Positions 16,170 to 19,048 of a stretch of DNA of 64,000 nucleotides are shown one piece after another; positions within the stretch are counted from its first letter, which is position 1, and each line of letters begins with the position of its first letter. This DNA is from Bordetella parapertussis (lineage in GTDB: Bacteria > Pseudomonadota > Gammaproteobacteria > Burkholderiales > SG8-41), in contig CAMATZ010000004.1 of NCBI GenBank assembly GCA_945861275.1, positions 1 through 64,000 of the forward strand, given 5' to 3'. Under the pieces are notes generated by a model, which was given only the letters and a program-made list of their open reading frames with translations, did no database searches and had not been told where the DNA came from. The position numbers and the translations under genes are program-made.

Positions 16170-17645
16170 ATGCAAGCCATACTTCAAAAAGCGGACACGC
16201 TCATTTTCGACAACCGCTTCGACAATCGCTTTGCGCGGTTGCCGCCGGCGTTTTACCGCAAGGTCGATCCGGTGCCGCTGGCAGCACCCTACCTGGTCAG
16301 CGTGAGCGACGATGCGGCTGCGCTGCTTGATCTCGATCCTGCCGACACCCGCAGCGAGCGTTTCCTGCACCTGCTCTCGGGCAATTTCGTACCGCAGGGC
16401 GCCGAGCCACTGGCGATGCTTTATGCCGGCCATCAATTCGGCACCTTCGTGCCGCAACTGGGCGATGGCCGCGCGATTTTACTGGGCGAAATTGTGAATG
16501 CCAGGCACGAGCGCTGGACCCTGCAGCTCAAAGGCGCGGGCATGACGCCGTTCTCTCGCACCGCCGACGGTCGCGCGGTGCTGCGTTCGACCATACGCGA
16601 ATACTTGTGTTCGGAAGCGATGCACGCGCTGGGCATACCCACCACGCGCGCGCTCGGCATTGCGGGCGCCGATGAAACCGTGTACCGCGAAACGCCGGAA
16701 ACTGCCGCGGTATTGCTGCGGCTGGCGCCTTCACATGTACGCTTCGGGTCGTTTGAGGTTTTTTACCACCGGCGCGAGCACGCGTATCTGAAACAACTGG
16801 CCGATCACGTCATCGAGGAACATTTTCCGCAGTACTTGGGCACGCCCGACAGCTTTGAGCGATTCCTCATCGAAGTCATCGAGCGCACCGCGCGGCTGAT
16901 CGCACAGTGGCAGGCGGTGGGGTTTTGCCACGGCGTAATGAACACCGACAATATGTCGATACTGGGACTCACGCTCGACTACGGCCCCTTTGGCTTCATG
17001 GAAGCCTTCAACCCCGGCCATATTTGCAATCACTCGGATGACCAGGGCCGTTACGCATACCAGAATCAACCTTACATCGGTTTGTGGAATTGCTCGCGAC
17101 TGGCGCAAGCGCTGACACCGTTGATCGATGCCGAAAAATGCAACGCGGCACTGGCGCGCTATGAAGGCGCGTTCATGGAAAAACACTCGGCGTTGATGCG
17201 CGCGAAACTCGGATTCACGCAAACCATGGATGGCGATGACACACTGATTAATGACGTGCTGGCGCTGCTCGCCGAACACCGCGTTGACTACACGATATTT
17301 TTTCGCACCCTGAGTGGCGGCAATTTGAATGCGGTGCGCGATCTGCTCATTAACCGCCCCGCCCTCGATGCATGGGCCGCGCGCTACACGGCGCGGCTTA
17401 AAGCCGAATTCAGTGATGACACCGTTCGCCGCGCACGCATGATCGCCGTCAATCCAAAATACGTGCTGCGCAACCACTTGGCGCAAGTTGCTATTGAAAA
17501 GGCCGAGAAACACAAAGACTTTTCAGAAATCGACCGGCTGCTCAGGCTGTTGCAACACCCGTTCGACGAACAGCCGGAATTCGAGGCCTACGCCGCCCCA
17601 CCGCCGGATTGGGCGAAGGGTATCGAGGTCAGTTGTTCTTCGTAG
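16170..17645 (+). CDS. selO: SelO/YdiU family protein adenylyltransferase
   Basis: This 491-residue pseudokinase-fold enzyme transfers AMP to proteins. Family marks are LYAGHQFGTFVPQLGDGRA (about 90-109), LKGAGMTPFSRTADGRAVLR with the nucleotide-binding Lys and Arg, and HGVMNTDNMSILGLTLDYGP with the Asn/Asp metal ligands. It ends SCSS: the Cys sits third from the end, where vertebrate SelO has selenocysteine. Family knowledge links SelO to redox stress. The ATG is 8 bp after the upstream dehydrogenase. This is the Cys form, although the gene two places downstream may carry a Sec codon. Confidence 0.93.
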   Translation: MQAILQKADTLIFDNRFDNRFARLPPAFYRKVDPVPLAAPYLVSVSDDAAALLDLDPADTRSERFLHLLSGNFVPQGAEPLAMLYAGHQFGTFVPQLGDGRAILLGEIVNARHERWTLQLKGAGMTPFSRTADGRAVLRSTIREYLCSEAMHALGIPTTRALGIAGADETVYRETPETAAVLLRLAPSHVRFGSFEVFYHRREHAYLKQLADHVIEEHFPQYLGTPDSFERFLIEVIERTARLIAQWQAVGFCHGVMNTDNMSILGLTLDYGPFGFMEAFNPGHICNHSDDQGRYAYQNQPYIGLWNCSRLAQALTPLIDAEKCNAALARYEGAFMEKHSALMRAKLGFTQTMDGDDTLINDVLALLAEHRVDYTIFFRTLSGGNLNAVRDLLINRPALDAWAARYTARLKAEFSDDTVRRARMIAVNPKYVLRNHLAQVAIEKAEKHKDFSEIDRLLRLLQHPFDEQPEFEAYAAPPPDWAKGIEVSCSS

Positions 17646-17722
17646 TGCCGTAGGGCGCTTGGAGTAACCTCGGCACTGTCCGCTCTCAACTCCGAACTCT
17701 CAACGCCAAACCGGGCAATGTG

Positions 17723-18586
17723 ATGCAAAGCAAATCAGTCCAGTGTCTAAGCCCTGCCGGCTTGCACAACATGCACTACACCGAATGGGGTGCGCGCGAC
17801 AACCCGCGCATCGTGATCTGCGTCCACGGCCTTACGCGCAACTGCCGCGACTTTGATGATCTTGCGCGCAATCTGGAAAAAGATTTTCGCGTGGTGTGCC
17901 CGGATATTGCAGGGCGCGGGCAAAGCGAGTGGCTCGCTGACAAGCAGTACTACGGCCTGCAGCAGTACCTGGCCGACATCAACACACTGCTCGCGCGTCT
18001 CACCGCGGACGCTGAGCACGCAAGTGCGCGCGAAATCCTGTGGGTCGGCACCTCGATGGGTGGCATGATCGGCATGTTGTTCGCCAGCCTGCCGCGCACG
18101 CCGGTGTCCCGGCTGGTGTTAAACGATGTGGGCACGTTGATCCCGCAAGCGTCGCTGGAACGCCTGGGACGTTATGTGGGCAAGGCGCCGGCATGCAATA
18201 CACTGCAAGAGCTGACTGTTTACCTCAGAACCGTGTCAGCAACGTTCGGACCGCTGAACGACGCGCAGTGGGAACATCTGACGCGCCATAACGCCAGGCA
18301 AAATGCCGACGGCACCTGGACCATGAATTACGATCCCGGCATCGCGTTGCCGTTTCAGGCAAAGCCGCTCAACGACATTGATTTGTGGAGCTACTATGAC
18401 CGTATCACCTGCCCGACGCTGTTATTGCGCGGCGCCGAATCCGATCTGCTGCTGAAAGACACGGCGCTCGCAATGACGCAACGCGGGCCGCAAGCGCGAT
18501 TGGTGGAGTTTGCCGGCGTCGGGCATGCGCCGATGTTGATGGCGGAGGATCAGATTGAAACTGTAAGAGCATTTTTAACAGCATAG
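17723..18586 (+). CDS. Alpha/beta hydrolase
   Basis: This 287-residue protein has the alpha/beta-hydrolase order: CVHGLTRNCRDFDDLA (oxyanion loop), PDIAGRGQSEW, the nucleophile elbow GTSMGG near residue 112, an acid region RGAESDLL near 236 and the catalytic His in VGHAPML near 264. It is probably a cytosolic esterase or C-C hydrolase; the substrate is unknown. ATG 17723 and the GTG just before it are both possible starts. It lies 77 bp after selO and 13 bp before the ArsC-like gene. Confidence 0.85.
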   Translation: MQSKSVQCLSPAGLHNMHYTEWGARDNPRIVICVHGLTRNCRDFDDLARNLEKDFRVVCPDIAGRGQSEWLADKQYYGLQQYLADINTLLARLTADAEHASAREILWVGTSMGGMIGMLFASLPRTPVSRLVLNDVGTLIPQASLERLGRYVGKAPACNTLQELTVYLRTVSATFGPLNDAQWEHLTRHNARQNADGTWTMNYDPGIALPFQAKPLNDIDLWSYYDRITCPTLLLRGAESDLLLKDTALAMTQRGPQARLVEFAGVGHAPMLMAEDQIETVRAFLTA

Positions 18587-18599
18587 AAAAGGAACGTCC

Positions 18600-18944
18600 A
18601 TGACCACGATATACGGCATCCGTAACTGAAGCACCATGAAAAAAGCCTTCGCGTGGCTCGAGGGCAAGGGCATCGAATACACGTTTCACGATTACAAAAA
18701 GCTTGGCGTGCCAGACAAGCGCATCAAGGTGTGGATCCAACAAGCCGGCTGGGAGCGCGTGCTCAATACCAAGGGAAAGACGTTTCGAGATTTGCCCACG
18801 GCACGCAAGCTTGACCTCAACGCCGCTAAAGCGGCTGCTCTGGCGAGCGAATTTCCCAGTGTCATCAAGCGACCCGTGCTTGAAAGCGGCAACACCATAG
18901 TGCTGGGATTCGATGCCGATAAGTACCAAATTGTGCTCAAGTAA
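18600..18944 (+). CDS. ArsC/YffB-like reductase with in-frame TGA at the catalytic Cys, candidate selenoprotein
   Basis: An ATG at 18600 follows AAGGAACGTCC. It reads TTIYGIRN, then TGA at 18627-18629, and continues in frame as STMKKAFAWLEGKGIEY to a TAA at 18944 (114 codons). YffB/ArsC-like proteins are about 115-118 residues and carry NC(D/S)TxKKA at exactly this place, so the TGA replaces the catalytic Cys. The rest is intact (FHDYKKLGV, LNTKGKTFRDL, IKRPVLE). A hairpin with SECIS geometry lies 15 bases after the TGA. The alternatives are a fresh nonsense mutation, a base-call error, or restart at the ATG at 18636, which has a poor ribosome binding site and would lose the active site. Confidence 0.75.
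18645..18665 (+). promoter_or_regulatory. SECIS-like hairpin downstream of the in-frame TGA
   Basis: GCCTTCG (18645-18651) pairs with CGAGGGC (18659-18665), giving seven pairs including one G-T wobble, around the loop CGTGGCT. The loop has G then T at its second and third bases, 24 and 25 bases after the TGA. In bacteria SelB reads a hairpin just after the Sec codon with a G near the start of the apical loop, usually 16-37 bases away. The geometry fits; function is inferred. The same bases encode a conserved part of the protein, so chance is not excluded. Confidence 0.5.
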
Positions 18945-19048
18945 CATCAAGTATTTCCTGTAAATCATTGAATTAACGGCCTTTTACAGAGTGGCATCGA
19001 GCTAAATTTATCGTTTACAATCAGCATATTAGAAAGTAAACTGCGCGT

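Follow-up and report, generated by a model that had tools for sequence, protein, structure and literature searches.

The UGA at the catalytic position of a YffB-type gene in the window, the 64,000-nucleotide stretch of DNA analysed here, is very probably read as selenocysteine (Sec), and on comparative sequence grounds the gene would thus encode a selenoprotein. The gene starts with the ATG at 18600 and ends with the TAA at 18942-18944. Its only other in-frame stop is the TGA at codon 10, and its product reads MTTIYGIRN-TGA-STMKKAFAWLEGKG. The features of this locus are as follows.

16170-17645, forward strand: SelO (protein adenylyltransferase, PF02696) gene, Cys form, two genes upstream of the yffB-type gene
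17720-18586, forward strand: alpha/beta hydrolase gene, directly upstream, with its stop 13 bases before the ATG
18587-18594, forward strand: Shine-Dalgarno-like AAAAGGAA, with six bases from AGGA to the ATG
18600-18944, forward strand: yffB-type ArsC-like gene, 114 residues with the TGA read as Sec
18627-18629, forward strand: in-frame TGA on the catalytic Cys codon, proposed to encode selenocysteine 10; present in 16 genomes
18645-18665, forward strand: candidate SECIS hairpin of bacterial type, with its stem at 18645-18651/18659-18665 and its loop at 18652-18658

The first-pass annotation had described a single TGA on the catalytic Cys codon of a frame open on both sides, preceded by a strong Shine-Dalgarno sequence. 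Both were found here, and 16 distinct genomes carry the same single TGA, in genes that are otherwise free of internal stops. An AGGA lies at most 16 bases 5' of the ATG in nine of these genes. The window gene has no Cys codon at all, so the TGA position would be the sole redox residue of the protein. If the UGA is read as Sec and not as a stop, standard annotation by an ordinary gene finder is expected to drop the active site. Sequencing error as the source of the TGA was ruled out because 16 assemblies agree on it.

We assigned the protein to a family by profile and structure comparisons in which Sec was given to the programs as Cys. It scored above the cut-offs of PF03960 (ArsC; 58.2 bits, cut-off 24) and TIGR01617 (arsC_related; 95.2 bits, cut-off 75.05). 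The best model by E-value was NF008107 (ArsC family reductase, PRK10853), of which it missed the cut-off (113.9 bits, cut-off 121); all 13 members of set A1 match NF008107 at E<=0.001. The nearest solved sequences were 1rw1 (YffB, E 7.9e-30) and then 2kok. An AlphaFold model (13 TGA-form proteins, Cys for Sec) had a mean pLDDT of 93.5 and aligned with 1rw1 at a TM of 0.97 (0.9 A) and with 2kok at 0.77, with 46% identity in both structural alignments. Residue 10 is predicted to sit just before a helix of residues 11-22. The window protein therefore combines a predicted YffB fold and a single redox residue with the GX3CX3K motif of YffB (PMC3169414). It shares fold, approximate length, redox position and the motif GX3(C/U)X3K with the YffB proteins PA3664 (PDB 1rw1) and Bm-YffB (PDB 2kok), but these have Cys, usually in CDTM, where the window protein has TGA/Sec in USTM.

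The initial label of an ArsC/YffB-like reductase thus held for its YffB half and failed for arsenate reductase proper. A selenoprotein working as an arsenate reductase (ArsC) is improbable: although the protein belongs to PF03960 and Sec-containing ArsC has been predicted in marine metagenomes (PMC1088965, PMC2398784), it scored 23 bits against the arsenate reductase model TIGR00014 (cut-off 106.05), its motif is U-S-T-M and not UxxS, and of the three Arg with which ArsC binds arsenate, YffB has just one (PMC3169414). The arsenate reductase selenoproteins from the Sargasso Sea and GOS data belong to the same Pfam family and also carry Sec at the catalytic Cys, but they are UxxS proteins and ArsC proper. 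NF041106 (ArsC_rel_Se_1) likewise describes a distant ArsC-like selenoprotein, but with UxxC, and the window protein missed its cut-off by far (22.5 bits, cut-off 85). Arsenate reductase 2 of the GOS survey (cd03032), another Sec-containing family of ArsC-like fold, is given as UxxC (PMC2398784) and is set apart from USTM by this description, not by sequence. Still less probable is an Spx-like RNA polymerase regulator. TIGR01617 is described as an Spx/MgsR family and Spx structures match by fold, but the Spx models gave only 24.9-36 bits against cut-offs of 123-159, the CXXC switch is absent, and the structure model is closer to YffB 1rw1 than to Spx (TM 0.74-0.85).

We then asked how far this YffB with Sec (Sec-YffB) extends. 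Among the 74 genomes of the taxonomic family, 41 had a match; 13 of these carried exactly one TGA and the other matches had no internal stop. The window's genus, with 14 genomes in the search, accounts for 12 of the 13, and another genus of the family for the last. The two remaining members of the window's genus, G064 and G068, have tRNA-Sec and selB and gave no YffB match, which reflects either a real loss or an assembly gap. Two short peptides from TGA forms served as seeds for a scan of 84,980 species genomes, which therefore favours near relatives; of its 44 loci, 14 had TGA and 30 had Cys. Twelve of the 14 were already in the family list, while L061 and L063 were additional. A pattern search at order level found the TGA form in 7/399 genomes: four belong to the window's genus, and the other three (those of L061 and L063 plus G210) to a single different family. 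Homologues were matched in 266/399 genomes of the order; the homologue search represents the best-scoring part of these 266, and for weaker TGA forms in the order the evidence is that of the pattern search. At class level the pattern, an exact one that would miss divergent TGA forms, matched only the window itself among 369 genomes. The reversed pattern, used as a control, had no match in the order and class searches. Nor was a second YffB copy found in the TGA genomes, either in the family search or among the matches listed in the order search.

The site of the TGA was occupied by Cys in all 17 non-TGA loci of one alignment listing and in the 30/30 non-TGA loci of the large scan. Homologues thus have either TGA or a Cys codon there, and the scattered extra stops that would mark decay are absent from all 16 TGA genes. 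Thirteen of these 16 lack any Cys codon, and the single Cys of the other three falls at no shared place except near residues 95-96. The relatives are labelled as Betaproteobacteria or Burkholderiales assemblies, and Sec-YffB is common to a group of mostly uncultured bacteria. Four of the loci (L050, L051, L059, L060) are labelled Bordetella parapertussis MAG; their proteins group with those of Betaproteobacteria/Burkholderiales MAGs, and the labels look wrong.

Substitution patterns indicate that purifying selection acts both before and after the TGA. Over codons 1-96, leaving out 10 and 14-22, dN/dS between the window gene and its relatives was 0.07-0.29 in 14/15 pairs; dS of the remaining pair, with G067, was saturated. 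Upstream of the TGA, over codons 1-9, pN was below pS in 15/15 comparisons, most narrowly for G061 (0.33 versus 0.36). This bears on the reading of the TGA as a true stop, with either a decayed gene or a shorter protein from the ATG at 18636. Mechanical ORF calling does yield a 102-aa ORF at 18636-18944, but a true stop is extremely improbable given the selection on codons 1-9 and the recurrence of exactly one TGA and no other stop in 16 genomes. Furthermore, codon 13 of G067 is GTT and not a start, no Shine-Dalgarno was seen by eye 5' of the ATG at 18636, and the short form would lack the catalytic residue.

The reading as Sec is also supported by the machinery of the window's own genome (5.5 Mb, 95 contigs, 96.65% complete), in which selA, selB, selC and selD are all present. 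It has a tRNA-Sec (74.5 bits, above the gathering score), selB (455.1 bits), an adjoining selA (586.4 bits) and selD (427 bits), the last three above their curated cut-offs. This selD (L047, G000:C21:19971-20891) has an in-frame TGA of its own near the N-terminus, in the context HGGG-TGA-GCK. A formate dehydrogenase-N alpha gene (fdhA/fdnG; L131, G000:C22:66499-69417, reverse strand) contains one in-frame TGA in the context R-I-U-H-A-P-T-V; with the TGA read through, it scored 1134 bits against TIGR01553 (cut-off 814.2), for a locus that stops short of the gene end. Both selD and this gene belong to known selenoprotein families. The two top-scoring Fdh-alpha matches of the genome (C34, C10) have no TGA. 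Between selB and tRNA-Sec, the sel cluster includes a pyridine nucleotide-disulphide oxidoreductase gene (PF07992; L016:9709-10629, reverse strand), which could encode a reductase for the selenium system.

All 16 TGA genomes have a tRNA-Sec. One search batch found it in 17/18 genomes, among them 15 TGA genomes, and missed it only in the genome of L062; the sixteenth TGA genome was searched separately. selB was detected in 15/15 TGA genomes tested, a set that did not include G210; in G061 it is split over two contigs, and the pieces do not each reach the cut-off. At 1e-60, selB is present in 67/74 family genomes, including most of those with the Cys form or no match. Because selB is nearly universal in the family, machinery and TGA form do not co-vary there and their co-occurrence is uninformative. 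A reading of the TGA as Trp or Cys, through suppression or a changed code, would explain the frame that stays open across it but has a minimal chance of being correct, since the genes of G063, G065 and G127 end on TGA, which therefore still terminates in these lineages, homologues align Cys at the site, and tRNA-Sec accompanies every TGA form.

The candidate SECIS element is the hairpin at 18645-18665. Its stem, GCCTTCG (18645-18651) with CGAGGGC (18659-18665), has seven pairs, one of them U-G, and encloses the loop CGTGGCT. Fifteen bases separate the TGA from the stem and 22 separate it from the loop, whose G is the 24th base after the TGA. The seven-pair hairpin with G and T early in its loop was therefore as first described, while the distance of 24 bases given for it fits the loop G and not the stem, which starts after 15. 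The constraints published for bacterial SECIS elements (PMC13188914, Fig. 2) are a spacing of 16-37, a loop of 3-9, a stem of 4-16, a G within the first two loop positions and an energy of at most -7.5. The window hairpin agrees with all of them, with a spacing of 22, a loop of 7, a stem of 7, a G at loop position 2 followed by U, and -8.8 kcal/mol for the 21-mer.

Stronger support comes from comparison among genomes. The 21-base hairpin GCC TTC GCG TGG CTC GAR GGC is the same in 16/16 TGA genes apart from one A/G (U-A/U-G) change. Synonymous difference over codons 16-22 was 0.039 in these genes, compared to 0.22 to 0.70 (median 0.47) in 73 seven-codon windows clear of the hairpin. The Ala 18 codon is GCG in 16/16, whereas that of Ala 16 is GCC in 16/16. 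In the Cys homologues with Ala at position 18 (49/62), the codon is GCC in 41, GCA in four, GCG in three and GCT in one. None of the 62 Cys homologues has the complete seven pairs in the same register, and seven have six of them at the same codon positions, which suggests that few changes could create a SECIS within coding sequence. The hairpin is thus conserved beyond its coding role, and no other observation speaks more strongly for a SECIS than this freeze at the nucleotide level. Pairing itself is not thereby proven: 6/7 pairs are invariant, and a search for covariation revealed no compensatory change.

Taken alone, as one sequence, the hairpin of the window gene is not significant against chance. 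A stem at least as long occurred in some register in 30% of synonymous shuffles of the gene, and 11/62 Cys homologues likewise have, in some register, a stem with at least seven pairs. It is the recurrence of TGA and hairpin together in 16 genomes that goes beyond chance. Folding energy was dropped as evidence because z, which ranged from 0.6 to -2.7 and was 0.0 for the window gene, fell below -2 in only 3/10 sequences. An Rfam search of 18500-19000 gave two irrelevant sub-threshold matches and no SECIS family. L062, the Cys homologue with the highest identity (59%) in the two-peptide scan, has the near-SECIS GCCTTCGCCTGGCTGGAAGGC. Its 2.0-Mb assembly, which has the Cys form, is the one in which tRNA-Sec was not found; the near-SECIS is either precursor-like or the trace of a Sec-to-Cys reversal.

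To place the Sec forms among their homologues, we built a tree of 79 proteins (16 Sec and 63 Cys). The Cys proteins are a selection: 70 loci with Cys at the site were chosen, of which four were not extractable and three were dropped as identical. In this tree, which is unrooted as the program infers no root, the Sec forms fall in one clade with a single change (support 94/86, 98% of bootstrap trees). The clade persisted when residues 10-22 were removed (86/81, 85% of bootstrap trees). Since the proteins around it all have Cys, most simply Sec would have replaced Cys once in this lineage. Cys-form YffB proteins from other genera of the same family (L029-L032, L034-L046), where most genomes have selB, group elsewhere in the tree, which suggests gene transfer or old paralogy.

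Selenoproteins related to ArsC are not new in themselves. The statement of the first-pass annotation that environmental surveys had reported them was borne out (PMC1088965, PMC2398784), and arsenate reductases with UxxS or UxxC are named in these two papers and in PMC9312934. A 2026 review (PMC13188914) counts 119 families or subfamilies in its Table 1, among them Arsenate reductase UxxS (TIGR00014) and Arsenate reductase-like UxxC (NF041106). That table has no YffB or UxxM entry, and YffB, TIGR01617, NF008107 and UxxM are absent from the main text. Neither ArsC nor YffB is mentioned in PMC5029168 or in the parts of PMC12013277 covered here. PMC1794560 names an 'ArsC-like' selenoprotein and, in the parts covered, gives no motif for it, so a residual chance of overlap with Sec-YffB is left. 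We found no paper on Sec-YffB in a search of mostly open-access literature, and RefSeq records with this Sec may already exist. Under the rule of PMC13188914 that a different Sec motif marks a distinct subfamily, the motif UxxM would make Sec-YffB a new one. On strong comparative grounds, the ArsC-like selenoproteins thereby gain a YffB-type member that is monothiol and has the motif UxxM. Structures of YffB have been solved and no substrate is established; a natural Cys-to-Sec swap marks this residue as a redox catalyst, and the Sec provides a traceable active-site label.

In the proposed mechanism, SelB and Sec-tRNA would decode the UGA at codon 10 as selenocysteine, directed by the hairpin. 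The product would be a YffB-type protein of thioredoxin fold that lacks Cys and has its Sec immediately ahead of helix 1. Its selenolate would most likely attack an oxidised substrate, such as a mixed disulfide, with glutathione resolving the intermediate, since Sec-YffB has no second thiol. Brucella YffB, which has a single Cys, binds glutathione and has been put forward as a thiol reductase that depends on it (PMC3169414). By analogy, Sec-YffB is probably a monothiol, glutathione-dependent (seleno)thiol reductase.

The gene neighbourhood offers a further hint. The alpha/beta hydrolase and yffB-type genes are probably in one operon, and the order SelO-hydrolase-yffB is kept in 10/13 loci of the taxonomic family, including the window. 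Two of the other three are truncated at a contig edge, and the 3-kb flank of G062 lacks SelO. The link to SelO is not universal, as SelO was upstream in 0/3 loci of the other family (in flanks of only 1.5-3 kb). The neighbours of these loci and of several Cys loci are of mixed kinds. E. coli SelO AMPylates glutaredoxin and thereby affects protein glutathionylation (PMC12663964). Together with the glutathione-binding Brucella YffB, this would fit Sec10 acting on a mixed disulfide with glutathione resolving, and the adjacency of SelO may tie Sec-YffB to protein glutathionylation. More tentatively, and with rather low likelihood, the two might form a selenium-dependent glutathionylation module, in which Sec-YffB is a monothiol deglutathionylase tuned by SelO AMPylation and Sec is kept for its selenol reactivity. 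If true, such a module would offer a way into the function of YffB, which has long been elusive. The SelO of the window ends in SCSS, the Cys form, and Cys was likewise present in the nine relatives looked at; a Sec-containing bacterial SelO has been reported (PMC12013277).
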